Below, one piece after another: positions 7,264 to 35,053 of a stretch of 44,283 nucleotides of DNA. Source of the stretch: Rubrivivax sp. (GTDB taxonomy: Bacteria; Pseudomonadota; Gammaproteobacteria; Burkholderiales; Burkholderiaceae_C); assembly GCA_020720385.1 (NCBI GenBank), contig DYOR01000013.1, positions 1 to 44,283 of the forward strand. Reading direction: 5' to 3'. The notes under the pieces were generated by a model. The model saw only the letters and a list, made by a program, of their open reading frames with translations, searched no databases and was not told where the DNA came from. Numbering within the stretch: the first letter of the stretch is position 1; each line of letters opens with the position of its first letter. A program made the position numbers and the translations under genes.

Positions 7264-7291
7264 AATCCGATTCGTTGAGCAAAGAGCTGGG

Positions 7292-8395: not shown

Positions 8396-9501
8396 AGACG
8401 GTGCGCCGCCTGCTCTACCGGGACATCGTCGCCTCGGTCGTCTTCGTGGCGCTGGCGTTCCTCTCGCTCTTCTTCTTCATCGACTTCGTCGACCAGCTCG
8501 ACGGCGTGGGCAAGCACGGGCGCACCGCGTGGGACGTCGTGCTCGCCACGGCACTGCGCCTGCCCGGGCACTTCTACGAGTTGTTCCCCATCGCCGCGCT
8601 CATCGGCACGATCTACTCGCTGGCGCGGCTGGCGCAGTCCTCCGAATTCACCATCCTGCGCACCGCGGGCCTGGGCCCGGGCCGTGCGCTGGGCCTGCTG
8701 GCCGCGCTGGGCGTGGCCTTCGGCGCGCTGACCTTCGTCACCGGTGACTACATCGCGCCGGTGAGCGAGCGCGCCGGCGTGCGGCTCAAGGCGCGTTTTG
8801 CCGGCGGTCTGACGCTCGGCGGCGCGGGCGCCTGGCTCAAGGACAGGCGCAGCACGCCGCAGGGCGAGCGCAGCTACTCGGTCAACGTGGCCGGCGCCAG
8901 CGCCGCCGGTGGCATGCGCGGCGTGCGCATCTTCGAGTTCGACGCCGACGGGCGCCTGGTCTCGCGCACGCAGGCCAAGGAAGGTGTCGTCGCCGACGGC
9001 GGGAAGTGGACCTTGACCGATGTCGATGTCGCCGACTGGCCCGGTGCGCGCAGCCCCGACGCCAGGGTGCGCCTGCAGCACCATGCCACGCTCGCCTGGC
9101 CGAGCACCCTCAGCGCCAGCGTCGTGGCCGCCGCGGTGCTGCCGCTGGCGACCATGACCACCGTCGAGCTGTGGCGCTACAGCTCCCACCTGGGGGACCA
9201 GGAGCAGGCCACGCAGGCCTACGAGATCCGCTTCTGGCGCAAGGCGCTGTACCCGCTGGCCGCCCTGGTGATGATGGCCCTGGCCCTGCCCTTCGCCTAC
9301 ATGCATGCACGCTCCGGCGGCATCAGCCTGAAGGTCTTCGGCGGCATCATGCTGGGCATCAGCTTCGTGCTGCTCAACAACCTCTCGGGCCACATCGGCA
9401 TGCTGCGCGGGTGGACGCCTTGGGTCGCCGCCGCCTTGCCCAGCCTGGTCTACCTGGGGCTCTCGCTGGCCGCCTTCGCCTGGCTCGTGCGCTATCGTTA
9501 G
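8392..9501 (+). CDS. lptG: LPS export ABC transporter permease LptG
   Basis: Partner permease of LptF, 369 residues. It has a short cytoplasmic N-terminus (MKTVRRLLYRDI), three helices, a periplasmic jellyroll domain at about 110-260, then three helices ending LVYLGLSLAAFAWLVRYR. The conserved cytoplasmic coupling segment SSEFTILRTAGLGPGR, which contacts LptB, is present near 83-98. It starts in a 4-base overlap with lptF. lptA, lptB and lptC are not in the window. Confidence 0.94.
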   Translation: MKTVRRLLYRDIVASVVFVALAFLSLFFFIDFVDQLDGVGKHGRTAWDVVLATALRLPGHFYELFPIAALIGTIYSLARLAQSSEFTILRTAGLGPGRALGLLAALGVAFGALTFVTGDYIAPVSERAGVRLKARFAGGLTLGGAGAWLKDRRSTPQGERSYSVNVAGASAAGGMRGVRIFEFDADGRLVSRTQAKEGVVADGGKWTLTDVDVADWPGARSPDARVRLQHHATLAWPSTLSASVVAAAVLPLATMTTVELWRYSSHLGDQEQATQAYEIRFWRKALYPLAALVMMALALPFAYMHARSGGISLKVFGGIMLGISFVLLNNLSGHIGMLRGWTPWVAAALPSLVYLGLSLAAFAWLVRYR

Positions 9502-9505
9502 TGCC

Positions 9506-9883
9506 ATGCATAGCGCCCTGATCCTCTTTGCCCACGGGGCACGCGACCCCGCCTGGGCGGCGCCGTTCGAGAAGGTGGCGCAGCAGGTGCGCCAAGCCCA
9601 CCCGGGCCGGCACGTCGCGCTGGCCTACCTGGAGTGCATGACGCCCAGCCTGGCGCAGGCGGCTGCGGCGCTGGTGACTGCGGGCTGCACGCGCCTGGCC
9701 GTGCTGCCCATGTTCCTGGGCACGGGCGGCCATGTGCGCGAGGACCTGCCGCGGCTCATGGGCGAGTTGCGCCAGGCCCATCCCGACGTCGCCTTTGCGC
9801 TGCTGCAGGCCGTCGGCGAGATCGACAGCGTCGTCGCAGCGATGGCAAGGGCCGCCGGCGCCGCCCTGCAAGACGGCGGATGA
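9506..9883 (+). CDS. CbiX-type sirohydrochlorin chelatase (single-domain)
   Basis: A 125-residue, single-domain chelatase of the CbiX-short / SirB class, which inserts Co2+ or Fe2+ (or Ni2+) into sirohydrochlorin. The two metal/substrate His are in the expected places: LILFAHGARDP near the N-terminus and PMFLGTGGHVREDLP at about 70-84. Short CbiX forms function as homodimers. It starts four bases after lptG and its stop overlaps the CysB-like gene as ATGA. Overlap with a sulfur-type regulator suggests iron insertion for siroheme of sulfite or nitrite reductase; this is inference. Confidence 0.88.
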   Translation: MHSALILFAHGARDPAWAAPFEKVAQQVRQAHPGRHVALAYLECMTPSLAQAAAALVTAGCTRLAVLPMFLGTGGHVREDLPRLMGELRQAHPDVAFALLQAVGEIDSVVAAMARAAGAALQDGG

Positions 9884-10843: not shown

Positions 10844-12019
10844 ATGAGTTCCACCACCCCGCCGACCGCCTTCACGCCCGCACTGCGCAGCCGCCTGCCG
10901 CAGGTGGGCACGACCATCTTCACCGTCATGTCGGCCCTGGCCCAGGAGTGCGGCGCGGTGAACCTCGGCCAGGGCTTCCCGGACTTCGATTGCGACCCGG
11001 CACTGCTCGCCGAGGTGGGCGACGCGATGCGCGAAGGGCTCAACCAGTACCCCCCCATGGCCGGCGTGCCGCTGCTGCGCCAGCGCGTGGCCGAGAAGAT
11101 CGCCGCGCTCTACGGGCGGCGCTACGACGCGGGCGGCGAGATCACCATCACCGCCGGGGCCACGCAGGCCATCTTCACCGCCGTGATGTGCTGTGTGCAA
11201 CCCGGCGACGAGGTGGTGGTGCTCGAACCCTGCTACGACAGCTACGCGCCGAGCATCGAGATGGCCGGCGGCCGCGTGGTGCGCGTGCCCCTCGTGCCCG
11301 GCAGCTTCCGGCCCGACTTCGGGCGCATCGCCGCGGCGCTCTCGCCGCGCACGCGACTGCTGATGATCAACTCGCCGCACAACCCCACCGCCACCGTGTG
11401 GACGCGCGACGAGATGCTGCAACTGGCGCAGCTGCTGGCGCCGACACAGGCCTTGCTGCTCTCCGATGAGGTCTACGAGCACATGGTCTTCGACGGCGCG
11501 CCGCATGTCAGCGCCTCGTCGATCGAGGCCCTGGCTGCGCGCGCCTTCGTCGTCTCGAGCTTCGGCAAGACCTACCACGTCACCGGCTGGAAGGTGGGCA
11601 CCGTGGCCGCACCGGCGGCGCTCACGGCCGAGTTCCGCAAGGTGCACCAGTTCAACGTCTTCACCGTGAACACGCCGGTGCAGCACGGCCTGGCGCGCTA
11701 CATGGCCGACCCGCGGCCGCACCTCGAGCTGGCCGCGTTCTACCAGCGCAAGCGCGACCTCTTTCGCGCCGGCCTGGCGCGCACCCGGCTGCGCGCGCTG
11801 CACACGCAGGGCAGCTATTTCCAGCTCGTCGACTACAGCGCCGTGAGCAGCCTGCCCGAGGCCGAGTTCTGCCAGTGGCTCACGCGCGAGGTCGGCGTGG
11901 CCGCGATTCCGGTGGCGGCGTTCTACGAAGGCGGGCTCGAGCAGGGCCTGGCGCGCCTGTGCTTTGCCAAGCGCGACGAGACCCTGCAGCAGGCATTGCA
12001 GCGGCTGCAGCCGCTGTAG
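10844..12019 (+). CDS. PLP-dependent methionine-type aminotransferase (YbdL-like)
   Basis: Fold-type I aminotransferase of 391 residues. The start region LRSRLPQVGTTIFTVMSALAQ and NLGQGFPDFDCDP are characteristic of the YbdL / kynurenine aminotransferase-like group. The PLP lysine is Lys242 in SSFGKTYHVTGWKVG. The NSPHNPTATVW and LLSDEVYEHMVF segments hold the other cofactor contacts. YbdL prefers methionine and aromatic amino acids, so a role in the last step of methionine salvage is plausible, and the preceding CysB-like gene also points to sulfur metabolism. It begins 19 bases after that gene on the same strand. The stop lies 2 bases from the convergent FimV-like gene. Confidence 0.9.
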   Translation: MSSTTPPTAFTPALRSRLPQVGTTIFTVMSALAQECGAVNLGQGFPDFDCDPALLAEVGDAMREGLNQYPPMAGVPLLRQRVAEKIAALYGRRYDAGGEITITAGATQAIFTAVMCCVQPGDEVVVLEPCYDSYAPSIEMAGGRVVRVPLVPGSFRPDFGRIAAALSPRTRLLMINSPHNPTATVWTRDEMLQLAQLLAPTQALLLSDEVYEHMVFDGAPHVSASSIEALAARAFVVSSFGKTYHVTGWKVGTVAAPAALTAEFRKVHQFNVFTVNTPVQHGLARYMADPRPHLELAAFYQRKRDLFRAGLARTRLRALHTQGSYFQLVDYSAVSSLPEAEFCQWLTREVGVAAIPVAAFYEGGLEQGLARLCFAKRDETLQQALQRLQPL

Positions 12020-12021
12020 CT

Positions 12022-14061
12022 TCAGGGCCGCGGAGGCGGCGGCACGTCCTGGAGCGCGTCGAACAAGCTCGACGTGCGCTCCTCCTCGACCGAGAGGTCC
12101 AAGTCCACCGGCACGGTCGGCCGGTCCTCGGACTCGGGCCGCGGCTCGGCGGCGTCGCGCTCCAGGCCCAGGTAGGGCGCGGGCGAGGTGCTGCCGAACT
12201 CGCCGCCGTCGGGCAGGGGCAGGAGCAGGTCGACGTTGCCATTGGCCGCACCTTCGCGGTCCAGCAGGTCACGCGCCAGCGAATACAGGAACAGCACCTC
12301 GCGGTACGCGGGCAGGTCGAAAAGCTCGCCGCGCGACTTGCGGAAGAGCAGCGCCTCGAGCTCGGCCATCGCGTCCAGCGGCCGCTCCCACACCTGCTGC
12401 AGGCGCGGCACGACACCGGCATAGTCCTCCAGCGTGCGCCCGCTGCCGAGATCCGCACCCCACTCGGGAGCGTAGGCATTGAAGCGGTCGTTGAAGCGCG
12501 AACGCGTGCGCTCGTAGTCGGCGCGGTCCCCACGCCGGTGGTAGATCTCCATCAGCTTGAGGTAGGGCAGCGGGCTGCCGCCGCCGGTGCTGCGCAGGTG
12601 CTCGACGAGCAGATCGATGGCGGCCTCGTCCTGGCCGAGCACGACGAAGAACTCGGCCTGCTGTTCCAGGTCGATGAGCTCCTCGATCGAGACGTCGCGC
12701 GCCGCGCCTTCCTCGCCCACCAGCTTCGGCGGCAGCACATCGGTGCGCTGCATGGCCGCATCGGCAGCCACAGGCGCCGCAGGCACGGCCGCTTCCTGGG
12801 CAGCCGGAGGCAAGGGCGCCGGGGTCGAGGCCGGCCAGGGCGTGGTCGGTGCGGAGGCGGCCGTCGGCGGCCACGCGTGCGCGCTGCGCGCTCGGCCGAG
12901 GGTGGAATCGGTCGACGCGAGCTCCGAGGTGACGAAGGGAATCGGCCGCGTCATCTGGCGGCTGCTCGTGGCGTCGGGAACCGGCACCGGCACCGGCACC
13001 GGCGCAGCCGCCTGGCGCCAGGCGGCCTGCAGCCGACGTTGCACGCCGGCGAGCCGCCAGGCGAGCCACCCCGCCAGCCCCGCCAACAGCAGCGCCGCCC
13101 CGAACAAGGGCCACAGCCAGCGCACCGCCGCTTCCGCGCGGCCGACACGCTTGCGCGATTGCGCGGCGGCATCGCGGCTGTCCTTGGCCTGCACGCGCAA
13201 CTGCTCGACGGTGCGTTCCAGCGCGGCCATGCGTTGCTCCGCGGCCGAGGCCACCAGAGCCGCCGCACGCGCGGCGCTGGCCGCCTGGGCCACGGCCTCG
13301 AGCGCCTGATCCACCGCCTGGGCTTCGGCCTTGGCCACCGGCTCGGCGAGCTCGAGCGTGAGCCGCGGCCCGGCCGCCGGGGCCTTCACGCTGGCGACCG
13401 CCGCACGGCGAAGTTCAGCGGGCGGCTTGGTCGCAGCCGCGCGCCGGTGCGCCGGGCGCCTGCGCACGGGTGCGGCCACGCGCATGGCGGGCCTGGCCTC
13501 GCCCGTGGCGGTGGCGGTGGCACGCGCAGCGACGCTCGCCTCCGCGGCGTTGCCGGAGGCTGCGGCCACCACACCGGCCGCGGGGACCGCGGCAGCGGCG
13601 GGCCTGGAATCGTCGCTCGCCGGAACCTCCGGCGGCAGCGCCGCGGCCGAGGGGGCGACGGCCCCCGCCGCCATGGGCAATCCCGGTGGGTCGGCGAAGA
13701 CGATGAAGCGCCGGGACAAGGTGTTCGCGCAACCCATGTCGAGCTGCACGCCCACCACGGGTTCGTCGATGGCCACGGCCGTGAGCACGCGCACGCGGGC
13801 ACGCCCGGCGCCCGTCGCCTCGACCACCGTGCGCACGAGCACGGACGGCAGCTGGCGCTCGCCCACGCTGACCTGGGCGCGCACGCACTCCGGCGTCAGC
13901 GTCTCGTCGGTGTCGAGCCGCACCTGGACCGGGAAATCGAGCCTTTGTCCGAGCACCACGGCCGTGTCCCCGGGGCCAAAACCTGCTGCCGATGCCGCCG
14001 GGGCCGCCGTGGCTGCGGCCAGCGCGATGATCAACGACAGCCTGGGCCGCTTCTTCTGCAT
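12022..14061 (-). CDS. FimV-like cell-envelope protein
   Basis: A 679-residue protein. An N-terminal signal peptide (MQKKRPRLSLIIALAAATAAPAASA) precedes a domain (AGFGPGDTAVVLGQRLDFPVQVRLD...) resembling the conserved N-terminal FimV domain. A long Ala/Arg/Pro-rich linker follows, then a predicted coiled coil rich in Ala and Glu (around 270-310), one membrane helix (WLWPLFGAALLLAGLAGWLAW), and a 300-residue acidic C-terminal region with helical hairpins of TPR-like spacing (about 480-620). This signal / envelope domain / coiled coil / TM / cytoplasmic acidic order is that of FimV/HubP polar organisers tied to type IV pili and pole organisation. Overall identity is inferred from architecture rather than from a strong motif. 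No pilus gene is adjacent. Confidence 0.6.
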   Translation of the reverse strand: MQKKRPRLSLIIALAAATAAPAASAAGFGPGDTAVVLGQRLDFPVQVRLDTDETLTPECVRAQVSVGERQLPSVLVRTVVEATGAGRARVRVLTAVAIDEPVVGVQLDMGCANTLSRRFIVFADPPGLPMAAGAVAPSAAALPPEVPASDDSRPAAAAVPAAGVVAAASGNAAEASVAARATATATGEARPAMRVAAPVRRRPAHRRAAATKPPAELRRAAVASVKAPAAGPRLTLELAEPVAKAEAQAVDQALEAVAQAASAARAAALVASAAEQRMAALERTVEQLRVQAKDSRDAAAQSRKRVGRAEAAVRWLWPLFGAALLLAGLAGWLAWRLAGVQRRLQAAWRQAAAPVPVPVPVPDATSSRQMTRPIPFVTSELASTDSTLGRARSAHAWPPTAASAPTTPWPASTPAPLPPAAQEAAVPAAPVAADAAMQRTDVLPPKLVGEEGAARDVSIEELIDLEQQAEFFVVLGQDEAAIDLLVEHLRSTGGGSPLPYLKLMEIYHRRGDRADYERTRSRFNDRFNAYAPEWGADLGSGRTLEDYAGVVPRLQQVWERPLDAMAELEALLFRKSRGELFDLPAYREVLFLYSLARDLLDREGAANGNVDLLLPLPDGGEFGSTSPAPYLGLERDAAEPRPESEDRPTVPVDLDLSVEEERTSSLFDALQDVPPPPRP
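12980..13003. repeat. hexamer tandem repeat (ACCGGC x4)
   Basis: Four perfect copies of ACCGGC inside the FimV-like gene, encoding alternating Pro-Val just on the C-terminal side of its membrane helix. Such hexamer runs can change length by slippage in whole codons without shifting frame. Confidence 0.8.
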
Positions 14062-24409: not shown

Positions 24410-26128
24410 CTACGCCCTCTGCGCCGCGGCGTTGCGGATCGCCGTGAGCGTGGTGCGGCTGGTGGAGACCTCCGCATCGAGCTTGAGGTGCAGCAGCGTG
24501 GGCTGGCCCGCATCGATGGCGCGCTGCAGCGCCGGCTCGAAGCCCTCGCTGCGGTCGACGAACTCGGCGCGCCAGCCGTAGGCACGTGCGAGCGCAGCGA
24601 AGTCCGGGTTGAAGAGCTCGCTGCCGCTGACCCGGCCCGGGTACTCGCGCTCCTGGTGCATGCGGATGGTGCCGTAGCTGCCGTTGTCGACGACCACGCT
24701 GATGAGCTTGCGCGCCCCGTAGCCGGTGGCGGTGGCGAGTTCCTGCCCGGTCATGAGGAAGTCGCCGTCGCCGGCGATGTTCACCACCCAGCGCTCGGGC
24801 TGCAACAGGGCCGCGCCGACCGCGGCCGGCAGGCCGTAGCCCATCGCCCCCGAGGTCGGCGCGAGCTGCGTGCGGCCATGGTGCTGCAGCCCCGGGTAGC
24901 GGCAATAGCGGTGCAGCCAGCCCGAGAAGTTGCCTGCGCCGTTGGTGTAGATGCTGTCCTCGGGCAGCAGGCGCTGCAGGGTACCCACCACCACCGCCAG
25001 GTCCAGCGGCGCCACCGCTGGCGCCACGAGGTTGGCCTCGTAGTCGGCCATGGCCGCTGCCGTGTGCTCGGCCCATGGGATGCTGCTGGGTGCGGCGAGG
25101 CTGGCCAGCGCCGGGGCGGCGCAGGCCATCGAGGCCTGCATCAGCAGATCCGCCGCATAGACGCGGCCCAGTTCCTCGGGCCCGGCGTGGATGTGCACGA
25201 GCTTTTGCGCCGGCCGCGGCGGCGCAAGCAGGGTGTAGCCACCGGTGGTCATCTCGCCCAGGCGCACACCCAGGGCGATGATCAGGTCGGCCGCACGGAT
25301 GCGCGCCGCGAGCCTGGGGTTGACGCCGATGCCCACGTCGCCGGCGTAGAGCGGGTGGCGGTTGTCGAAGGTGTCCTGGAAGCGGAAACCGCAGGCCACG
25401 GGCAGCTGCCAGGCCTCGGCGAAGCGCTGCAATGCGCGCGCGGCCTGGGCGTCCCAGCCCGAGCCGCCGGCGATGACCAGGGGCCGGCGCGCCCCGGCCA
25501 GCAGCGAGCGCAGGCGCGCCAGGGCATCCGGCGTGGGCCACGCGTGCACCGGCTGCACGCGCGGCAGCACCGAGGCCGAGGTCATCGAGCTGAGCATGTC
25601 CTCGGGCAGGGCCAGCACCACCGGCCCCGGGCGGCCCTGCAGCGCGGTGTGAAAGGCACGCGCCACGTACTCGGGCAGCCGGTCGGCGCTGTGCACCTCG
25701 GCCGCCCACTTGGCCAGGCCCAAGGTGCCGGGGCCGAACATCTGGCGGTAGTCGATCTCCTGGAAGGCCTCGCGGTCACGCTGCTCGCCGGCCACCTGGC
25801 CGACGAAGAGCAGCATGGGCGTGGAGTCCTGGAACGCCGTGTGCACGCCGATGGCGGCATTCGTCGCCCCGGGGCCGCGCGTGACGAAGCACACGCCCGG
25901 TGTGGGCCCCAGCTTGCCCTGCGCTTCGGCCATGAAGGCCGCGCCGCCTTCCTGGCGGCAGGCGATGAAGCGGATCTGCTCGCGGTGCTCGTGGAAGCCG
26001 TCGAGCACCGCCAGGTAGCTCTCGCCGGGCACGCCAAAACAGGTCTTCACGCCCTGGGCGACGAGCGCTTCGACGAGGGCGTGGCCGGCCAGGCGGGCCG
26101 GCGAGGAAGGGGCAGTGAGGGAGGACAT
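24410..26128 (-). CDS. thiamine-diphosphate-dependent enzyme, acetolactate synthase-like
   Basis: A 572-residue TPP enzyme with all three domains: N-terminal Pyr domain with the catalytic Glu in CRQEGGAAFMAEA, central Rossmann domain, and C-terminal PP domain with GDGDFLMTGQELATATGYGARKLISVVVDNGSYG (the GDG...N Mg-TPP motif). It resembles large-subunit acetolactate synthase and benzaldehyde-lyase-type ligases, but no small regulatory subunit gene (ilvN/ilvH) is adjacent and the C-terminus is short. A biosynthetic ILV role is therefore unlikely; a 2-keto-acid or aldehyde carboligase/decarboxylase is more probable. Start 26128 gives MSSLTAPSSPARLAGHALVEALVAQG, the normal beginning of the Pyr domain. 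Confidence 0.88.
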   Translation of the reverse strand: MSSLTAPSSPARLAGHALVEALVAQGVKTCFGVPGESYLAVLDGFHEHREQIRFIACRQEGGAAFMAEAQGKLGPTPGVCFVTRGPGATNAAIGVHTAFQDSTPMLLFVGQVAGEQRDREAFQEIDYRQMFGPGTLGLAKWAAEVHSADRLPEYVARAFHTALQGRPGPVVLALPEDMLSSMTSASVLPRVQPVHAWPTPDALARLRSLLAGARRPLVIAGGSGWDAQAARALQRFAEAWQLPVACGFRFQDTFDNRHPLYAGDVGIGVNPRLAARIRAADLIIALGVRLGEMTTGGYTLLAPPRPAQKLVHIHAGPEELGRVYAADLLMQASMACAAPALASLAAPSSIPWAEHTAAAMADYEANLVAPAVAPLDLAVVVGTLQRLLPEDSIYTNGAGNFSGWLHRYCRYPGLQHHGRTQLAPTSGAMGYGLPAAVGAALLQPERWVVNIAGDGDFLMTGQELATATGYGARKLISVVVDNGSYGTIRMHQEREYPGRVSGSELFNPDFAALARAYGWRAEFVDRSEGFEPALQRAIDAGQPTLLHLKLDAEVSTSRTTLTAIRNAAAQRA

Positions 26129-26237
26129 GAGCCGCACTGTAGCCCCACCCGAGCGCCAATCGGCCCCGTTCGGGGCGCGCGTGGATGGCGCCGCTGCGGC
26201 GCCCGCCTTGCGTGCCCCGGGCGCGGCCGCTCGGGCT

Positions 26238-29200
26238 TCAGCGGTCGACGCAAACGCCCTGTGCCTGCTCTGGCGCGCCGGCCACCACCGTGGTGCTCGT
26301 GGTGCTCGCGACGGTCGCGCCACGCACGCCCTGCGCCTGCAGTTCGCGGCCCAGGCGCCACAGCGCGCAGGTGCTCCAGGGCGCGCCCAGGAGGCGCGGC
26401 ACGCCGCTGGAGGAATCGCCGCGCAGGGCCAGCCAGCCGGCGTAGGCGCCGCTCGTGCCGGCAAGCCAGGTGGTGTCGCCAGGTGGGACCCGCGCAAACT
26501 CGGCCAGGCTGGCGATGGGCGCCGGCGGGTTCTCCGCCAGCCGCGCCAGTTCGTCGTGCGTGGGGCGCTCGTACACCGCCACCAGCACCTGTTCACGCGT
26601 CCCTGCCACCTGCCCCGGGGGCAGCTCGGCGGCGGGGCGACCACGCGCGATGGCAAAGCAGCGCGCGCCATCTTCGAACATCTCGCTGCGGAAGCCCGGC
26701 TGCACCGCCCAGCCGGTGCTCATGCGCGCGCACACCGAATCCGGCGGCGAGCGGCGCAGCGCGGCGAAGCGCGCATCGTCCGCCGCCACCGGCAGGCGCT
26801 GCGCCGAATGCGACACCAGCCGCCAGGCCTGGGCACCCATGCCCAGGGCGCGGCCGCCCGGCAGCGGCCAGCTCTCCACCACCGCCACGCGCGCGGCCCC
26901 CGCGGCCTGGCGCACGGTCTCGACGGCAGCGGCGTCGGTGACCACGGCGCGGGTCTGGCTCTGCACGATGCGGCTGGTGTCTTCCACGCGCTCCCAGTCG
27001 ATCTCCTGCACCGTGACCGAGGGGATCTCGACGCTGGGGCCCTGCGCGCTGTAGGCGAAGTAGCGCAGCCCGGAGTCGAGGATCACGGAGGGATCGAGGT
27101 AGCGCGGAATGGACACCACCACCTGGCCGAATTCGCAACGCGCGCTGGCCGTGTCGTAGGTCGCCCCGCGCAGCACGATGGCCGCGCTGCTGCCCGGCGG
27201 CAGACGTGGCACGAAGATGCCGCGCCGCCGCGTGCGTTGCGCCGGCCCGCCGCTGGAGACGAAGAGCTGCCCCGCCGCAGCCTCGGCCTGCCCCACCTCG
27301 GATGGTGCCGGCGCACAGAGGACCTCGAACTCGCCCGGCCGGGCCAGCGCGCGGTCGGCGGCAGCGCGCGGCGCGCCCTGCCACAGCGCGGTGGACAGGA
27401 GCTGGCGCAGCTTGCCGTTCACCGGCGGTTCGGCCTGCGCCGCCACGCCGCTGAGAAAGGCATCCTGGCGGCGCACGGGCGGAATCCAGGCGAGGTGCTC
27501 GAGCAGCCACTCCGAGACGCGCGCCATGAGCGAACCCTGCCCGGTGCGCGCGTCGTCGATGAGCTCGGCGGCGCGCAGCAGCGACGCCAGCGGCGCGCCG
27601 GCGGCGCCGACGCCGGGGTAGTCGGGCGTGAGCGGTGCGCGGTTGGCGCGATTGCCGGCGTCGAAAAGCAACTCGGCGCGCTGCGTCACCGGCGCCTGGA
27701 TGAGGATGGAGAACAGCGCCGAGGGCAGGAGCAGCAGCGTGAGCGCGCCCAGCGCCAGCCAGTTGCGGCGCCAGCGGCCTTCGCGGCGCTCGCGCTCGCG
27801 CTGGCGCTGGTTGGAGGTGGCGAGAAAGGTGTCGAGCTGCGGCGCCATCCCCGCCAGGCGCACGCCGTCGCGGTCGAGCAGCAGGTAGCGGAACCAGGCC
27901 GCGCGCTGCTCGGGCCGCGCCAGGCGGCCCTCGAATTCGCTCTCGCGCAGGCGGCGGATTTCGCCCGTCTCGAGCAGGAAGTCCTCGCGCCGCCGGCTGG
28001 CGTCCCAGGCGGCGCACTTGCGCAGCACACCGACGAACTCGTCGAAGCGCTCGGACTCGAGGTCGATGAGCTGGCGGAAACGCGACCAGCCACGGATGAA
28101 GGACTCGTGCGAGACCTTCAAGGTCACGCGCGCGGGGTCTTCCTTGTCCCAGAAGAGATAGTCCACCGAACCGAGGAAGCCCTCGGCCACGAGCGCGCGC
28201 AGCGCCGTGCTCGTCATGCCCGCGCCGAGCAGGCGTGCACCGGACTCGACCTCGATGCGCTGCTGCGAATACAAGCCGGTATTCGGGTCCTTGAAGGCGA
28301 GCTGGCGAAACAGGGCGTCGAGCTGCGCGCGCTCGGGCGCCGCATGGCCGCGATAGACCGCTTCGGGCCAGTTCTCGACGCACTCGCGCAGCGTGTTCGT
28401 GCGCTCGTCCAGGGGTTGCTCGTCGCCCGGCGCGAGCGCACCGCCGCCGACCGCGCGCACCAGGTCGATCTCGGTGATGCGCGCCGGCACCGGCACGTCC
28501 ATCTCCTCGCGCGCCAGCGCCGCCTCCCACAGCCGCGCCAGCAGGTGCTGCAGCAGCGGCAGGTGGTCCGGGTCGTGGGTGATGGCCTTCACGTCGCGCA
28601 GCAGCCGATCCAGCACCGCCTGCTCGAAGGCCACCTCGCCGGGCAGCCCGGCACCCCCATCGGCCTGGCTGCGCGCGACCAGGCGCAGGAAGCGCTGCGC
28701 CGGGCCGACGATGGCGTCGCACAGCTCGCCGTCGTCGAGACGGCGGATGAGGTAGGACGACTTGTTGATCGCGTCGGGCAGTTCGAGATAGGCGGCGCAG
28801 TCGTTGAGATGCTCGCTGCGCATGGTGAGCACCACATGGCAGCGCGGGTGCGGGGCGAAGAAGTGGTCGAGCACGCGCTCCACCAGCAGCGCAGCGTCGG
28901 CCACGCCCTTGTTGGTGGGGTGGAAGAGCTCCTCGAACTGGTCGAGCACGAAGAGCACGCGCGCCTCGGCCGGGTCGGGCCCGCGCGGCACGGCGAGCTC
29001 GGCACCATAGGTGTCGAGCAGGCGTGCGAAGCCCGCCTCCTGGCGGAAGACCTCGGCGATGTCGGCCAGGCGCGCCGCGTCGGCCTGCTCGGTTCCGCGC
29101 GAACGCAGCAGCCCGGCGAAGCGCCGCGCCAGCCGCGTGATCGGCGAGGAGCGGCGCGCCGCGCTGTCCTCGGCGCTGACATTGGTGCCCGGCGTGCACG

Positions 29201-29471
29201 TCATCGGCAGCCACAGGTCCCCCGCCCCGGGGATGCCGAAGCTGCGCAACTCGGGCACCACGCCGGCGTGGATGAGGCTGCTCTTGCCCGAGCCCGAACC
29301 GCCGAGCACGGCGACGAACTGCGTCTGGCGCAGGCGCTCGATGACCTCGCGCACCTGGCGTTCGCGGCCGAAGAGCAGCGCGGCCTCGAAGTCGAGGAAG
29401 GGGCGCAGGCCCGGGTAGGGCTCGCGCGGCAGCCGGGCGCGGGCGTCGTCGGGCAGGGCCGGGGCGTTCAT
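26238..29471 (-). CDS. nSTAND1 NTPase with transmembrane helix and unknown C-terminal region
   Basis: A 1077-residue STAND-type ATPase. The N-terminus PYPGLRPFLDFEAALLFGRE (about 19-37) is the hallmark of the nSTAND1 family. Walker A GGSGSGKS is at 57-64 and Walker B FVLDQFEELF near 174-183, with the nSTAND helical bundle and winged helix to about 510. One membrane helix follows at about 571-590 (WLALGALTLLLLPSALFSIL), preceded by a strongly basic stretch (QRQRERERREGRWRR), so the last 480 or so residues should lie outside the membrane. That region has no WD40 or TPR repeats that I can see; it contains six Cys. The start overlaps the TIR gene's stop (ATGA). nSTANDs sense a trigger and oligomerise in conflict and signalling systems; the trigger here is unknown. 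Confidence 0.88.
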   Translation of the reverse strand: MNAPALPDDARARLPREPYPGLRPFLDFEAALLFGRERQVREVIERLRQTQFVAVLGGSGSGKSSLIHAGVVPELRSFGIPGAGDLWLPMTCTPGTNVSAEDSAARRSSPITRLARRFAGLLRSRGTEQADAARLADIAEVFRQEAGFARLLDTYGAELAVPRGPDPAEARVLFVLDQFEELFHPTNKGVADAALLVERVLDHFFAPHPRCHVVLTMRSEHLNDCAAYLELPDAINKSSYLIRRLDDGELCDAIVGPAQRFLRLVARSQADGGAGLPGEVAFEQAVLDRLLRDVKAITHDPDHLPLLQHLLARLWEAALAREEMDVPVPARITEIDLVRAVGGGALAPGDEQPLDERTNTLRECVENWPEAVYRGHAAPERAQLDALFRQLAFKDPNTGLYSQQRIEVESGARLLGAGMTSTALRALVAEGFLGSVDYLFWDKEDPARVTLKVSHESFIRGWSRFRQLIDLESERFDEFVGVLRKCAAWDASRRREDFLLETGEIRRLRESEFEGRLARPEQRAAWFRYLLLDRDGVRLAGMAPQLDTFLATSNQRQRERERREGRWRRNWLALGALTLLLLPSALFSILIQAPVTQRAELLFDAGNRANRAPLTPDYPGVGAAGAPLASLLRAAELIDDARTGQGSLMARVSEWLLEHLAWIPPVRRQDAFLSGVAAQAEPPVNGKLRQLLSTALWQGAPRAAADRALARPGEFEVLCAPAPSEVGQAEAAAGQLFVSSGGPAQRTRRRGIFVPRLPPGSSAAIVLRGATYDTASARCEFGQVVVSIPRYLDPSVILDSGLRYFAYSAQGPSVEIPSVTVQEIDWERVEDTSRIVQSQTRAVVTDAAAVETVRQAAGAARVAVVESWPLPGGRALGMGAQAWRLVSHSAQRLPVAADDARFAALRRSPPDSVCARMSTGWAVQPGFRSEMFEDGARCFAIARGRPAAELPPGQVAGTREQVLVAVYERPTHDELARLAENPPAPIASLAEFARVPPGDTTWLAGTSGAYAGWLALRGDSSSGVPRLLGAPWSTCALWRLGRELQAQGVRGATVASTTSTTVVAGAPEQAQGVCVDR

Positions 29472-31012
29472 CCGTCCCGCCCTGCGTCGCGCTGCTGGCG
29501 GCGCTGGAAGACGTTCCTCAGGAAGCGCTCGAGCTCGTCGCTCTCTTCGTCGATGACGGCGATGCGCTCCTCGTCGGCGGCGTCGAAGCGCAGCACCTGC
29601 CAGCCCCAGGCGGGCACGGGTTCGGTGGCCTGCTGCGGCGGCATGAGGTAGGCGACGATGCCCGGGGCGGCGTCGCGCCCGGGGGCCATCTTGTTCTCGA
29701 CCTTGTTGATCTGCGCCACCAGCGCCTCGGAGGTCTTGCGGCCCCACAGCAGCACCACGCCATCGGCGTCGTCCAGGCTCGGGTAGCTGTCGATCTGCTC
29801 CACCGGCAGGCCGCGCGCGCGCAGCGTCAGCGGCGGCACGCGGCCGGGCGCGAGCTGCATGCAGACATGGTCCCACTTGCGGCGGATCTGCTCGCCCAGC
29901 GGCTGCCACAGGTTGAGCTCGTGGCGGTTGCTCTCGATGTAGATGCGCACGCCCTGGGTGGTGACGGTGGACGCAGCCGCGCGGGGCGCAGGCGCCAGCT
30001 TGTCGGCCAGTGCTGCCAGGCCCAGGGGCGCCACGCCAAGCGTGGCGACGAAGGCCGCCCCACCCTGCCACGCGGCCGGCGGCGGCGGCGCCACGCGCAG
30101 GTCCAGCCAGTGCAGCCGCTCGGGCGGCTTGCCCTGCTTCAGCCAGGCGTCGCGCTGCACCTGCAGGTGCCCGCCGGCGCCGAGCGTGGCCATCATCGGC
30201 AGCGCGTCGTCGAAGGCCAGCACGAGGTCGTCGGCGGCGGCGAAATCGGCAAAGTCGCTGAACACGGCGTCGGGCGAGAGCTGGCGCGCACCCACGCCGC
30301 GCTGGCCCAGAGCAGCCAGCGCGGCGCTGGCCGCCAACGCCGCAGCCGGCGGCACGAAGCCCAGCAAGACCCCGGGCACGGTGGGTGATGCCAGCTCGGC
30401 ACTCACCACCTCCACGTCCACCGGCGTCGGCCGGGGCGCCGCAGCGGGCGTGGCCGCCGCCCGCTTGAGCTTGGCCGCCATGTCGCTGCGCAGGCGCTCG
30501 AAGGGCACGCGGAAGGCCGGCGCCACCAGGCCCGGCGCCATGTAGATGTCCAGCGGCCGCGCCTTGTCCGCGGGGTCGAAGAAAGGCATCCACAGCTGGT
30601 CCTGGCTGGGCAGCAGGCGCTTCCACGCCGCACTGGCGCTGACCTGCAGCATCGCCGCCTCGGACATGGCCACGATGTACAGGCGCTCGCGGAAGGCATC
30701 GTCGCTGGCAAGGCTCCTGAAGTACTCGAGCTCCTTGAGGCACCAGTCGCTCTGCGCGTAGTTGTCGTGCACCACGATGATCATGGCGAACGAGGCGTCG
30801 ACGCGCCTCTTCAGCTCGTCGGACAGCGCCCCCGCCACCGGGCCGTTCTCGCCCGAGAGGTGGAAACGCGGCAGCTTCACGCCGCGCAGCAGCGCGGGCA
30901 GGCTGCGTTCGAGCTCGTTGCGGAACTGCGTCACCCAGCTGAACCAGGCCGCATCGTCGGCATGGGCGTAGCTGATGAAGGCGGTGAACTCGCAGCCCTG
31001 CAATGGCTTCAT
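29468..31012 (-). CDS. TIR-domain protein
   Basis: A 514-residue cytosolic protein. Residues 8-150 form a TIR domain: FTAFISYAHADDAAWFSWV (strand A and helix A) and SDWCLKEL (88-95), where Glu94 sits at the catalytic position of NAD-cleaving TIRs. The Arg/Pro-rich BB-loop region PRFHLSGENG lies between them. A Pro/Ala linker (about 190-210) leads to a second alpha/beta region, of which about 345-500 (GVRIYIESNRHELNLW, DADGVVLLWGRKTSEALVAQINKV) looks like a Rossmann-type or degenerate TIR-like fold. It begins 10 bases after the maturase stop and overlaps the STAND gene. Likely effector or adaptor of the STAND protein; enzymatic activity is inferred from Glu94 only. Confidence 0.88.
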   Translation of the reverse strand: MKPLQGCEFTAFISYAHADDAAWFSWVTQFRNELERSLPALLRGVKLPRFHLSGENGPVAGALSDELKRRVDASFAMIIVVHDNYAQSDWCLKELEYFRSLASDDAFRERLYIVAMSEAAMLQVSASAAWKRLLPSQDQLWMPFFDPADKARPLDIYMAPGLVAPAFRVPFERLRSDMAAKLKRAAATPAAAPRPTPVDVEVVSAELASPTVPGVLLGFVPPAAALAASAALAALGQRGVGARQLSPDAVFSDFADFAAADDLVLAFDDALPMMATLGAGGHLQVQRDAWLKQGKPPERLHWLDLRVAPPPPAAWQGGAAFVATLGVAPLGLAALADKLAPAPRAAASTVTTQGVRIYIESNRHELNLWQPLGEQIRRKWDHVCMQLAPGRVPPLTLRARGLPVEQIDSYPSLDDADGVVLLWGRKTSEALVAQINKVENKMAPGRDAAPGIVAYLMPPQQATEPVPAWGWQVLRFDAADEERIAVIDEESDELERFLRNVFQRRQQRDAGRDG

Positions 31013-31022
31013 GGCAGGGGCC

Positions 31023-32234
31023 TCACGCCGCCAGGCCCTGCTCGAGCTCGGCCTGGCGCAGCACGGCGTCGAACGGGCGCTTGACCATGCTGCGGCAATG
31101 CAGCGTCTCGGTGGCCGCCAGGTCGCCGCATTCGTAGAGCTTGTTCGCCGGGGCGCCGCCGCCGCAGAACTCGAAGTGCGCGCAGTCGCGCGCGCAGGCG
31201 GCCACGCCCGCGCTCACGCCCCGCCACAGCTTCGAGAAGGCCGGGGTTTCGAGCGCCGCGACATAGCCGCCGCGATGCACGTTGCCGAGCACGAAGTTGG
31301 CGTACGCCGGCCAGGGCTGGCCCAGCAGCTCGGGGGAGAAGGTGCCGAAGTCGCCGTCGTGACCCACGCTGACCAGGGCCAGCGGCATGGCCTGCGAGTT
31401 CTCGGGCCAGGCATGCGCCGGCCCGCGCCCGTTCTCGTGCCATTCCCAGCGCGGCAGCCCCTCGCGCAGCGCCTGCCAGGCCGCCGCGAACTCGCGCACC
31501 ACCACGCGGCCGTGCAGCGAGCGCTCGAGCAGGCGCTGCACGAAGCGTTCGTGCGCCGCCTCGTGCCCGGCCAGGCTGGAACTCGCATGGGCGCCCTCGG
31601 CCTCGTCGAAGTTGCATCCCAGCTCGGTGATGCCCTGGGCCTCGAACCAGTCGTAGAAGGCATCCGCGTGCGCCAGCGTGGCCGCGCCGACCACGGCAAT
31701 GGCGTGGAAGGGCACGCCATGCCGGCGCAGCAGCGCGATGGCATGCCGGACGCGGGCATGCGTGCCCTGGCCGGTGCGCGTGCGCCGGCAGCGGTCGTGC
31801 AGCGCCGCCGGCCCGTCGACGCTGATGCCCAGGGCCACGCCGTGGCGCAGGAAGAAGGCACACCAGGCCTCGTCGATGAGCGTGGCGTTGGTCTGCATCG
31901 CGTGGCACACGCGCACCACGCCACCCAGCGCGTCGGCCACCGCGGCGAAGGCCTCCTCGTAATAGGCCGGCGGCAGCACCAGCGGCTCGCCCGCATGCCA
32001 CACCACCGTCAGTTCCTCGCCCAGCAGGCCGTCCTCGCGCAGCCGCAGCGCGGCCTGGCGCACCGTGGCGACGCTCATGCGCGAGCGGTCCTGCCGCTGC
32101 GGCAGGTAGCAGTAGCTGCAGTCGATGTTGCAAAAGGGCGTGGGCTGCAGCACCAGCAGCCGCGTCGTCGGCCGGGGCGAAAAGTCGGTGACCCGCACCC
32201 GTGCCGCGCCGGCACGGCGGGGCACCACACGCAT
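31023..32234 (-). CDS. radical SAM/SPASM peptide maturase, GrrM/OscB-like (cyclophane-forming)
   Basis: A 403-residue enzyme. The radical SAM cluster motif CNIDCSYC is at 35-42. The C-terminal SPASM region has Cys347, 351, 357, 369 and 380, with CGGGAPANKLYECGDLAATETLHC (357-380) matching the pattern I recall for GrrM/OscB and related maturases that join an aromatic ring carbon to the beta-carbon of a residue two places on. The start codon overlaps the upstream precursor's stop (TGATG), so translation is coupled. A Trp-x-Asn/Lys repeat peptide directly upstream is the obvious substrate. Each crosslink would remove two hydrogens. HxsB/anSME-like relatives are less likely alternatives. Confidence 0.87.
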   Translation of the reverse strand: MRVVPRRAGAARVRVTDFSPRPTTRLLVLQPTPFCNIDCSYCYLPQRQDRSRMSVATVRQAALRLREDGLLGEELTVVWHAGEPLVLPPAYYEEAFAAVADALGGVVRVCHAMQTNATLIDEAWCAFFLRHGVALGISVDGPAALHDRCRRTRTGQGTHARVRHAIALLRRHGVPFHAIAVVGAATLAHADAFYDWFEAQGITELGCNFDEAEGAHASSSLAGHEAAHERFVQRLLERSLHGRVVVREFAAAWQALREGLPRWEWHENGRGPAHAWPENSQAMPLALVSVGHDGDFGTFSPELLGQPWPAYANFVLGNVHRGGYVAALETPAFSKLWRGVSAGVAACARDCAHFEFCGGGAPANKLYECGDLAATETLHCRSMVKRPFDAVLRQAELEQGLAA

Positions 32235-32512
32235 CACTTGTTGGCCCAGTTGCTCCACTTGCTCCACTTCGGCCAGTTGGTCCAGTTGGCGGCCTGGGAC
32301 ACGAGGCGAGGCTGCTGCGGCTCGCCCTCGCCGATAACGGCAGGCGGCCGGCTCAACGCAGCGCGCACCGCAGCCACACGCGCCTGCAGCTGCGTACGTT
32401 GCGTGTCGACATGCGCCTGCGCGGGCAGCGCAACGCCGACCGCTCCGATCGCCGCCAGCGCGGCGAGCGGAGCACGGCGAGGACGCGGCGGGCGGAGGGG
32501 CTGGTCTGGCAC
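32234..32512 (-). CDS. putative cyclophane RiPP (triceptide) precursor peptide
   Basis: A 92-residue peptide from GTG 32512. It has a basic N-terminus (RPPRPRR), a hydrophobic core (APLAALAAIGAVGVALP) and AQA before His34, together a Sec-type signal peptide. A polar linker with QRTQLQARVAAVRAAL follows. The C-terminus is WTNWPKWSKWSNWANK: five uninterrupted Trp-x-Asn/Lys triplets (Trp 77, 80, 83, 86, 89) plus a final Lys. Trp-x-Asn/Lys is the substrate pattern of three-residue cyclophane maturases. Unlike GrrA-type substrates the repeat has no Gly. The stop overlaps the maturase start. GTG is the only good in-frame start that keeps the signal peptide; AGGA lies 9 bases upstream. Confidence 0.78.
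   Translation of the reverse strand: MPDQPLRPPRPRRAPLAALAAIGAVGVALPAQAHVDTQRTQLQARVAAVRAALSRPPAVIGEGEPQQPRLVSQAANWTNWPKWSKWSNWANK
32240..32284 (-). repeat. five 9-bp units encoding Trp-x-Asn/Lys
   Basis: Five consecutive 9-base units, each TGG + variable codon + AAC or AAG, form the core of the precursor peptide. Middle codons differ (ACC, CCG, AGC, AGC, GCC), so the units are kept by selection on the first and third residues rather than by recent duplication. Confidence 0.85.
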
Positions 32513-32520
32513 GGCGGCCG

Positions 32521-32549
32521 ATCCTAGGCGCGGCCCTGGGCCTTGTAAA
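32521..32549 (-). promoter_or_regulatory. candidate promoter of the RiPP-TIR-STAND operon
   Basis: TTTACA (32544-32549) and TAGGAT (32521-32526) are 17 bases apart on the minus strand, five and four matches of six to sigma-70. The -10 ends 8 bases before the GTG start, so transcription would begin at or within two or three bases of it. The AGGA inside the -10 could instead be the ribosome-binding site; both roles are not possible in one transcript. Confidence 0.42.
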
Positions 32550-32569
32550 GGCGCGGTGCCCCCTAGGCG
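32523..32569. repeat. paired CCTAGGCG sites around the operon promoter
   Basis: CCTAGGCG occurs at 32523-32530 and again at 32562-32569, one copy over the -10 and one upstream of the -35, 39 bases apart start to start. CCTAGG is itself a palindrome, and CTAG is scarce in this GC-rich sequence. They could bind a regulator, but no regulator gene is adjacent. Confidence 0.35.
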
Positions 32570-32619
32570 ACACGGCCTGGCGCCGTACGGCGGCGGCGGC
32601 GCGTCGGGGGCAGGCCGCG

Positions 32620-33876
32620 TCAGGCAATGACCGGACCGATCGCGGCGCGAACGCGCCAGGCCACGAGCACCGCCGAGACCACGCCCATCGCCAGCGCTGC
32701 GGCCGAAGCGGCGAACACGGCGTTCTCCCATCCGTGGTCCATGAGCCAGCCGAACACCGGCGCCGCGGTGGCGAAGCCCACGTCGAGCCCCGAGTACACC
32801 GTGCCGTAGACGCGGCCGGTGGCGCCGGGTGGCGCGGCGCGCTTGATGAGCATGTCGCGCGAGGGCCCGGCCAGCCCGGCGCCGAAGCCGGCCACGGCCA
32901 CCGCGGCACCTGCGAGCAGCGGCGGCAGCACGCCGCTGGCCACGAGCAGCAGCAGCGCGGCCGAGGCCGCCATGGCCAGGCCGATGGTGCGTTCGAGCTG
33001 CGCCACGCGAGTGGTGACGAACCCGCCCACGAACATGCCCGCCGCCCCACACAGCATGTAGCCGGTGACGACGAAGGCGGTGGCCGACAGCGGCAGCGTG
33101 TACATGCGCGCCAGCGCCGGGCCGGCGAAGGACTGGATCGCCGACAGGGCCGCCGTGGTCCAGAAGAAGAACGAGAAGCACAGCCACACGGAGGGCAGGC
33201 GCAGGAAGGCCATGGGATGCTCGTCGTGCACGGCGCCGCCGGCTTCGCCGCGCTCGTGCGCCCACTCGCCGCGGCGGTCGTCGATGGCCCGGCCGTTCAG
33301 CGCCAGCAACATCAGCACGCCCAGTGCCAGCAGCGCTGCACCCACGCACGCCGTGCGCCAGCTGCCGCTGAGCTCGCTCATGCCGACGAAGTACACCGGC
33401 GCAGCCGCCCAGCCCAGGTTGCCCGAAATGCCGTGCACCGAGAAGGCATGGCCCAGCCGGGGCGCGGAGACGCGCTTGTTGAGCACGGTGAAGTCCGAGG
33501 GGTGGAACGGCGCATTCCCGAGCCCGGCCAGCGCCGCCGCCGCCATCAGCCCGCCGTAGCCGCGCGCGCCGGCCGCCGCCAGGGCCGCGGCGGCAAAGCA
33601 CGTCAGCGCGGCCAGGAGCACCGGCCGCGCGCCGACGCGGTCGACGAGGAAACCGGACAGCGCCTGGCCGGTGCCGGAAATGACGAAGAACACCGTCACC
33701 AGCAGGCCGAGCTCGGAGTAGCTCAGTCCGAATTCGCGGATGAACGCCGGGAACAGCGGCGGCAGCAGCAGGTGGAAGAAGTGCGAAGTGCCGTGCGCCA
33801 GGCCGATGAGGCCGATGACGGCAAAGTCCGCTCGTGCCGTGGGGGCAACGGCGACCGTGGAGGAAGCGGGGTTCAT
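32620..33876 (-). CDS. MFS transporter
   Basis: A 418-residue major facilitator with 12 predicted helices. The loop 2-3 signature [14 protein letters not shown] is present, and a charged central loop ([25 protein letters not shown]) separates the two halves. The first helix region [25 protein letters not shown] is like a large proteobacterial MFS group of unknown substrate. It is divergent from nadA by 64 bases and on the same strand as the RiPP operon, 107 bases upstream of the precursor. It could in principle serve the operon, but the candidate promoter between them argues for separate transcription. Confidence 0.9.
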
Positions 33877-33940
33877 GGCGCGCAGGGTGCAGGTGGGGCA
33901 ACGGCGAAGTTACGATAGCAGCACCAACCCCGGCAGCCCC

Positions 33941-35053
33941 ATGACCCAGATCGCCTTCGATTACTCCCGCCCCGACGCCAGCGGCGCCACCGGCACCGCC
34001 CAGGCCTGGGCCCGGGTGCCCACCGCCCTGTCACCGGCCGAGCGCCAGCGCGCCATGCAGCGCGCCGCCGAGCTGCTGAAGGCGCGCGACGCCATGCTCG
34101 TGGCGCACTTCTACGTCGACGCCGACCTGCAGGACCTGGCCCTGGCCACGGGCGGCTGCGTCGCCGATTCGCTGGAGATGGCGCGCTTCGGCCGCGACCA
34201 CGCCGCGCAGACCCTGGTCGTGGCCGGGGTGCGCTTCATGGGCGAGACGGCGAAAATACTGAGTCCGCACAAGCGCGTGCTCATGCCCGACCTGGAAGCC
34301 ACCTGCTCGCTCGACCTGGGCTGCCCGCCGGGGCCTTTCGCCGCCTTCTGCGACGCCCACCCCGAGCGCCAGGTGGTCGTCTACGCCAACACCAGCGCCG
34401 CGGTGAAGGCGCGCGCCGACTGGATGGTGACGAGCTCGTGCGCGCTGGCCATCGTGGCGCACCTCGAGGCGCAAGGCCGCAAGGTGCTGTGGGCCCCCGA
34501 CCGCCACCTCGGCCGCTACATCCAGGAGCAGACCGGCGCCGACATGCTCATGTGGGACGGGGCGTGCATCGTGCACGACGAATTCAAGGGCCTGGAGCTC
34601 GAGCTGCTGCGCCGCCAGCACCCCGGCGCGCAGGTGCTGGTGCACCCCGAATCGCCGCGCAGCGTGGTCGAGCAGGCCGACGTGGTGGGCAGCACTTCGC
34701 AGCTGCTCGCCGCCGTGGTGCAGGGCCAGGCGCAGACCTACATCGTCGCCACCGACAAGGGCCTCATGCACCGCATGCGCCAGCTCGCCCCGGGCCGTAC
34801 GCTGATCGAGGCGCCCACCGCCGGCGCCAGCGCCACGTGCAAGAGCTGCGCGCACTGCCCGTGGATGGCGATGAATGCCGTGCAGGGGGTGGTGGATTGC
34901 CTGGAGCACGGCACGGGCGAGATCACCCTGGACGAACCCGTGCGCGCCAAGGCGCTGGGCTGCATAGAGCGCATGCTCGACTTCGTCGCCCACCACCCGG
35001 GCAGCATGGCCGCGCCGCAAGGCGGGTTCGTGCCGCGCATCGGCGCGGCTTGA
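33941..35053 (+). CDS. nadA: quinolinate synthase
   Basis: Makes quinolinate from iminoaspartate and dihydroxyacetone phosphate in NAD biosynthesis, using a [4Fe-4S] cluster. A protein of 370 residues; the likely cluster ligands are Cys122 ([11 protein letters not shown]), Cys209 ([11 protein letters not shown]) and Cys306 (in [10 protein letters not shown]). The substrate segments [27 protein letters not shown] and [10 protein letters not shown] are present. ATG 33941 fits the family start. A weak -10 (TACGAT) lies at 33911. The partner gene nadB is 2.3 kb downstream on the other strand. Confidence 0.96.

Follow-up and report, generated by a model that had tools for sequence, protein, structure and literature searches.

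A GrrA/GrrM-type peptide–maturase pair joined to a TIR–nSTAND1 core in Rubrivivax sp.: a possible membrane-spanning alarm

In a 44,283-nt stretch of Rubrivivax sp. DNA (assembly GCA_020720385.1, contig DYOR01000013.1), referred to here as the window, four genes at positions 26238..32512 lie end to end on the minus strand and encode, in this order, a GrrA-like precursor peptide, a radical SAM/SPASM maturase, a TIR protein and an nSTAND1 ATPase (Table 1). Comparison with related loci indicates that TIR–nSTAND1 is the core of this system and that the peptide/maturase pair is an add-on, which is found again beside nSTAND1 ATPases in Alphaproteobacteria. A sequence-only reading of the window had held that the peptide and its maturase are wired to the TIR/STAND proteins; a link beyond chance adjacency stands, given the kept gene order and the alphaproteobacterial recurrence, and an obligate four-gene unit does not, as most nSTAND1-bearing relatives in the genus have no maturase match.

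The gene places, strand and junctions given in that reading were all borne out by the sequence and the family assignments: precursor and maturase overlap by TGATG, maturase and TIR gene are separated by a 10-base gap (31013-31022), and TIR and nSTAND1 genes overlap by ATGA. A pattern scan of positions 26000-33950 gave one sigma-70-like promoter match just 5' of the precursor (0.2 expected), so near the start codon that either the promoter or the start call may be wrong. The same scan found no terminator-like site between the four genes, and its sole terminator-like match, with 2.1 expected in shuffles, sits within the ATPase gene. The four genes would be transcribed as one transcript. The closest named relatives of the window are Burkholderiales metagenome-assembled genomes (MAGs), two of them labelled Rubrivivax/Sphaerotilaceae.

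To place the four genes within the genus, 81 genomes, the window's own included, were surveyed at cut-offs of E<=1e-60 for nSTAND1 and E<=1e-30 for the maturase (genomes are numbered G, loci L). An nSTAND1 homologue was present in 16 genomes and a maturase match in 11, six of the latter being 60-100% identical (G000, G097, G096, G018, G069, G015), one 44% (G024) and four 29-39%. The core peptide together with a 65-100% identical maturase occurs in five genomes (G000, G097, G096, G018, G069), all among the 16 nSTAND1-positive ones, and in all five the pair adjoins TIR/nSTAND1, with an adjacency that spans a contig break in G096 and genes that are degraded in G069 (Fisher p = 1.7e-4, or 9e-4 with G015 counted as a miss). 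The sequence-only reading had named pairs at unrelated loci in close relatives as evidence of chance adjacency, and here the answer is split: every genome with maturase and core peptide is linked, and the 60%-identical maturase of G015, a genome with no nSTAND1 match, lies in another operon (L113), in whose 19-kb locus no W-rich core was found. In L113 (G015:C157, 7085-10712) the maturase gene overlaps that of an AAA_22 ATPase which also has a winged helix (Trans_reg_C), another maturase–STAND-like pairing. In G069 the four-gene locus (L094, G069:C168, 3967-7404) is decaying, and maturase, TIR and ATPase match only in parts. The expected conservation of gene order across genomes holds for relatives, the window order being kept in L002, L042 and, as far as its contig end, L003, and fails for the five alphaproteobacterial loci described below, which share a different order.

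The surroundings of these loci also bear on how the unit is built. The thiamine-pyrophosphate (TPP) enzyme next to the operon stays the same whether or not the peptide pair is present (L002, L059 and L061 by Pfam, others by sequence start), and the MFS transporter flanks L002 and the peptide-free L061 by Pfam and L003, L042, L060 and L094 by sequence start. Since the flanks are the same in both cases, TIR–nSTAND1 appears as the stable core and the peptide pair as something that comes or goes at one site, gain and loss not being told apart by the trees. The TPP enzyme marks the orthologous site in the genus and the MFS transporter is a syntenic flank; both probably lie outside the system.

A pattern scan with the window maturase, which biases the set to its own kind, returned 45 loci, and the genomes of 43 of them were searched, the weak matches L043 and L044 being left out. 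GrrM was found at E<=1e-40 in 42 of the 43 genomes (39 above cut-off), TIR_2 in 23 (22 above cut-off) and nSTAND1 in 19. In four genomes (G105, G145, G143, G112) nSTAND1 lies <=10 kb from the maturase, and G106, whose contig ends inside the TIR gene, can be added to them; the chance expectation for nSTAND1 within 5 kb of the maturase was 0.06 for the 43 genomes. Because G105, G145 and G106 are all Burkholderiales relatives, these cases represent at most three independent lineages.

The alphaproteobacterial loci L040, L095, L009, L119 and L120 share a plan in which an effector protein, an nSTAND1 ATPase with a transmembrane helix, a GrrA peptide and GrrM follow on one strand. The effector place is held by a trypsin in one locus, by weakly TIR-like proteins in three and by a protein of no assigned family in one. 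Bradyrhizobium L040 has an EAD1 (effector-associated domain 1)–TIR-like protein, the ATPase, a peptide with FPN repeats and GrrM, and Bosea L009 has a Trypsin_2 protein (53 bits, cut-off 27.6); the L009 ATPase is read in two overlapping frames (6226-9718), a frameshift in the gene or in the assembly. L095 came from an order-wide draw of 397 genomes, of which 3, counting the centre, had GrrM, and its effector-place protein, without a Pfam match, is preceded by a Trypsin_2 gene. L119 and L120 were recovered through the ATPase rather than the maturase, as the two non-seed matches among three in 391 genomes, and carry peptide and maturase directly downstream, the L120 ATPase and precursor overlapping by ATGA. 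A second ATPase search of 347 genomes gave four matches: the seed, L009 and two Microvirga proteins that match in the NTPase part only. Thus, of the four nSTAND1-seeded matches not preselected as linked, two are linked (G905, G951) and the two from Microvirga are not. A class-wide draw of 385 genomes gave no new locus and two already known. G264, G905 and G951 count as Alphaproteobacteria because they were drawn from the order or family of Bradyrhizobium G143.

EAD1 scored above cut-off in the effector proteins of L040 and L119 and in the trypsin proteins of L040, L119 and L120, and was not found in the effector-place proteins of L009 or L095. The EAD1-trypsin genes adjoin L040, L119 and L120. 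Downstream of the L040 and L120 operons come genes for calcineurin-like phosphoesterases, and both kinds of gene look as if they were further effectors of the system. Between Burkholderiales and Alphaproteobacteria the NTPases are homologous (hhalign probability 100), as are the maturases (about 41-45% identical), and in both groups the precursor begins signal-like and the ATPase has a single transmembrane helix and a long C-terminal part.

The window precursor has the core NWTNWPKWSKWSNWANK with five Trp-x-Asn/Lys motifs and a C-terminus ending in NWANK, preceded by a signal-peptide-like N-terminus (RPRR...AQA) and the leader helix motif LQARVAAVRAAL; no NCBIfam or Pfam precursor model matched it. 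A protein search returned 66 precursors, the window's own included; over all 66 the core (last 17 residues) averages 97.5% identity to the window's and is the same in 45, itself among them, and the leaders average 46% identity, figures that are biased toward core conservation as such a search favours shared words. Cleaner evidence comes from L002, L003, L042 and L094, which were fetched by maturase or ATPase and not by peptide: the core is changed at 0-2 residues in 4/4 loci. A near-fixed core of this kind is more in keeping with a self-ligand than with a toxin in an arms race. By a simple in-house script criterion, 46 of 50 precursors of >=80 aa have a signal-like start, so that their sequence suggests export to the periplasm. 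At least 12 of 19 precursor clusters (longest contig >=8 kb, window's included) had a same-size contig in a listed TIR/ATPase cluster, the TIR list covering 120 of 355 and the rest of both lists being compared by eye. In L028, two different W/G-rich precursor-like open reading frames precede one GrrM gene, upstream of the maturase match at 10001.

The maturase belongs to the GrrM/OscB subfamily (TIGR04261, 339.5 bits, curated cut-off 310) and carries the radical SAM CxxxCxxC motif as CNIDCSYC. Assignment to AmcB (NF041718, 296.8 bits, cut-off 425) or FxsB (TIGR04269, 97.7 bits, cut-off 370) was rejected, and the DynA, DarW and DarE models also matched below cut-off. From what is known of the family, the enzyme would crosslink Trp to residue i+2 in the five W-x-N/K motifs; the available part of PMC11002830 describes OscB as joining Trp to Asn or Asp and does not cover a Lys partner. 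Elsewhere, a large protein of L010 (6334-9870), starting MSWGWGNWYNWYNWSNY, adjoins a GrrM gene and could be a giant substrate of that enzyme; the next gene after the maturase (11197-13677) resembles a flavin-dependent tryptophan halogenase in its GGGTAGW motif.

The TIR protein matches PF13676 (TIR_2) at 32.4 bits (gathering score 28) with an N-terminal TIR domain at about 1-187, followed by alpha/beta domains at about 215-340 and 355-512; its AlphaFold model has a pLDDT (per-residue model confidence) of 82 and a pTM (predicted template-modelling score) of 0.42. Glu94, within DWCLKEL, is invariant across 37 aligned sequences, the window's included, and aligns with the Glu of plant TIR 3jrn, the residue that is catalytic in plant TIRs. 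Plant TIR RUN1 takes Foldseek ranks 2 and 4, and the listing includes a RUN1 E100A entry. The protein is thus a putative NADase. In the peptide-free loci L064, L065, L090, L091 and L092 the TIR protein is shorter (386-420 aa), with much of the middle alpha/beta domain missing.

The ATPase scored 182.8 bits against PF20703 (nSTAND1; gathering score 27.1), with a P-loop GGSGSGKSS and the motif VLFVLDQFEE in an NTPase spanning about 18-470. A single hydrophobic segment at about 571-595 forms a likely transmembrane helix, and the C-terminal domain at about 697-1031, beta-rich in the predicted model, is predicted to be periplasmic. This outer domain changes faster than the NTPase part. Among genus members, its identity averages 0.48 in the six peptide-bearing pairs (NTPase identity 0.77) and 0.33 in the 36 pairs of bearing with non-bearing members (NTPase 0.73), L087 being counted as peptide-bearing because the pair sits on a different contig of its genome, G096. 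Peptide-bearing members do not cluster in the TIR tree.

Taken together, the four genes quite possibly, if short of probably, encode a membrane-spanning alarm, in which the periplasmic domain of the ATPase keeps watch on an exported cyclophane peptide and the ATPase in turn triggers the TIR effector. In the cytoplasm, the GrrM-type enzyme would link the Trp in every one of the five Trp-x-Asn/Lys motifs with the residue at i+2, so that a rigid chain of three-residue cyclophanes results, and the signal sequence would direct the peptide into the periplasm. There, the fast-evolving beta-rich domain of the ATPase would read it as a self-ligand under guard; loss, capture or accumulation of the peptide would report an envelope attack by phage, predator or competitor. 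The ATPase would then switch, oligomerise inside the cell and activate the co-translated TIR protein, which would consume NAD+ or make a nucleotide signal, and the cell would stop. What the sequences show directly is the gene order, the families, the conserved core, the recurring association, the single hydrophobic helix and the TIR glutamate. Crosslink chemistry, export, topology, STAND switching and NADase activity are predicted from family knowledge; binding of the peptide by the outer domain and the sign of the response are conjecture. We think it rather unlikely, at present, that a periplasmic guarded-self crosslinked peptide read by a transmembrane STAND ATPase firing interchangeable suicide effectors (TIR, protease) constitutes a new class of immune switch.

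Several observations weigh against the alarm. At E<=1e-30, eleven of the 16 nSTAND1-bearing genus genomes gave no match to the maturase (G023, G028, G036, G009, G012, G072, G073, G078, G082, G084, G088), and no precursor or maturase remnant was found upstream of TIR in 10 of these 11 (tblastn E<=1e-3), the G082 contig being too short for this reading; several are incomplete MAGs, in which single absences could be gaps. Because TIR–nSTAND1 persists without a detected maturase in these genomes, the switch can do without the peptide. In 38 of the 42 GrrM genomes, the contig of the maturase carries no nSTAND1 within 10 kb (37 with G106 taken as linked, and some contigs are just 3-6 kb), and the two Microvirga matches have their maturase on other contigs of draft genomes. 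TIR_2 remains below its cut-off of 28 in L040 (21.9 bits), L119 (21.8) and L120 (15.6). The second half of the TIR protein has no detected homology to the effector proteins of the alphaproteobacterial loci; the ATPases of the two groups align over the NTPase part only, with no detectable homology between their outer domains. The two groups thus have the plan in common but not each of its parts, which implies that the plan was assembled repeatedly or has diverged past recognition. Within the genus, outer-domain identity among non-bearing pairs averages 0.38 (NTPase 0.75), peptide-bearing members cluster in the ATPase tree, though without strong support (85/98), and shared descent confounds the outer-domain comparison. 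PADLOC matches were weak or generic: a viperin model hit the maturase by generic radical SAM similarity (E 4e-7, 27.6 bits), and the ATPase gave a 20-residue P-loop match only (mad3, E 0.002).

Three other explanations were considered. A chance neighbourhood, in which a functionally unrelated GrrA/GrrM pair landed beside TIR–nSTAND1, would suit the separation of maturase and nSTAND1 in most genomes; we regard it as very improbable in view of the overlapping start and stop codons, the recurrence in Burkholderiales and in five loci of Alphaproteobacteria whose ATPases have diverged and whose effectors differ, and the four to five linked genomes, from at most three independent lineages, where 0.06 were expected. 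The crosslinked peptide could instead be a secreted weapon or signal (a bacteriocin or kin signal), with TIR–STAND as linked self-surveillance or immunity. The signal-like precursor start agrees with this, the related crosslinked peptides darobactin and dynobactin are antibiotics, if made by maturases whose models fall short here, and the FxSxx case was proposed as a peptide toxin or signal by Kaur et al. (PMC7159879). However, the four genes encode no transporter or peptidase domain, the upstream MFS gene also flanks peptide-free L061, the core is nearly invariant in the homologues found, unlike arms-race toxins, and TIR–nSTAND1 is retained without the peptide, which together leave this explanation unlikely.

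The peptide could also be an effector that the TIR–STAND alarm releases or activates, a second toxin arm. In the alphaproteobacterial loci peptide and maturase lie downstream of effector and ATPase, amid trypsin and calcineurin-like phosphoesterase genes, a placement resembling that of extra effectors in conflict systems, and amplification by the peptide was favoured by Kaur et al. (PMC7159879). In the window, by contrast, the peptide gene is first in the operon, ahead of the switch, and a Pfam scan of the four genes found no releasing peptidase; we consider a second toxin arm distinctly improbable.

The sequence-only reading's suggestion that no described system joins all four parts was too strong, as an FxSxx peptide, a radical SAM/SPASM enzyme and a TIR-AP-ATPase were already described together in 2020 (PMC7159879). 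Those FxsABC/FxSxx modules, the peptide-processing part of actinobacterial VMAP-ternary conflict systems, resemble the window in their small precursor with a conserved C-terminus, radical SAM/SPASM enzyme, TIR and STAND-class ATPase, in the shared gene neighbourhood and in the proposed conflict role. In the window, however, the host is proteobacterial, the maturase is of the GrrM/OscB class and not FxsB, the peptide has Trp-x-Asn/Lys repeats, a signal-like start and an NWANK end without FxSxx-COOH, and the ATPase is nSTAND1 with a transmembrane helix and a beta-rich C-terminal domain, not an AP-ATPase with tetratricopeptide repeats. The FxsC N-terminal TIR-like model NF040588 scored 20.2 bits (E 4.7e-4, cut-off 130), a distant similarity only, and a Pfam scan of the four operon genes and two flanking genes found no zinc metallopeptidase domain. 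The concept itself is thus known, and what sets the locus apart from its precedent is the class of both maturase and ATPase, the type of peptide, the topology and the host. GrrA/GrrM–OscA/OscB triceptide clusters share with it a maturase above the family cut-off, repeated aromatic-x-Asn motifs and the leader helix motif; unlike the window, the GrrM loci examined on plasmids (three of six records: Streptomyces, Nostoc, Phaeobacter) have no annotated TIR or STAND gene nearby. STAND/EAD conflict systems (Kaur 2020, 2021), in the parts of the accounts available, likewise combine an nSTAND1 switch with exchanged effectors, EAD1 and other EADs going with TIR, trypsin or calcineurin, and EAD1 occurs in L040, L119 and L120; the window switch differs in being a transmembrane ATPase with a peptide/maturase pair tied to it, and the window proteins gave no effector-associated domain in the Pfam scan. 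The available parts of PMC8195603 and PMC10907252 describe nSTAND1 with exchangeable effectors and mention no maturase. Thoeris and other TIR anti-phage systems share a TIR with the glutamate of NADase TIRs; Thoeris ThsB was rejected as an assignment (PF08937 13.2 bits, cut-off 21.2; PADLOC ThsB E 9e-5 and 4e-3 over 36-44 residues), and no ThsA match was found among the scanned genes. Literature searches, made on paper listings, found no report of a GrrM–TIR/nSTAND1 association.

Table 1. Features of the four-gene system and its flanks in the window, and effector-type genes flanking alphaproteobacterial loci
Feature	Position	Strand	Remarks
GrrA-like precursor peptide	32234..32512	-	GTG start, 92 aa
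Radical SAM/SPASM maturase, GrrM/OscB subfamily	31023..32234	-	403 aa, TIGR04261
TIR protein	29468..31012	-	514 aa, PF13676
nSTAND1 ATPase	26238..29471	-	1077 aa, PF20703
Promoter-like match TTTACA-17-TAGGAT ahead of precursor	32521..32549	-	consensus match only
Thiamine-pyrophosphate enzyme, PRK08199 family, next downstream	24410..26128	-	NF006052 806 bits
MFS transporter, upstream flank	32620..33876	-	PF07690
Flanking effector-type genes, L040	2821-3897 and 12320-13594		
Flanking effector-type genes, L120	5872-7083 and 13875-15293		
Flanking effector-type gene, L119	3997-5130		

To our knowledge, most three-residue cyclophane peptides have no known biological role, and most bacterial STAND ATPases have no known ligand. 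The recurring operon gives each of them a testable partner: it offers a near-fixed peptide with its maturase, a membrane ATPase that has an outer domain, and NAD+ loss as an enzymatic readout. Should the peptide prove to be the ligand, a ribosomally synthesized and post-translationally modified peptide would act as a component of immune sensing rather than as an antibiotic, and the bacterial parallel to innate immunity, with ligand, STAND receptor and TIR executor, would be extended across the cell membrane. If the guarded-self switch is true, coupling of GrrA/GrrM to an nSTAND1 membrane ATPase would be a general, repeatedly assembled design in Proteobacteria. The pairing, which recurs in distant bacteria and so looks real, may show how such alarms are set.

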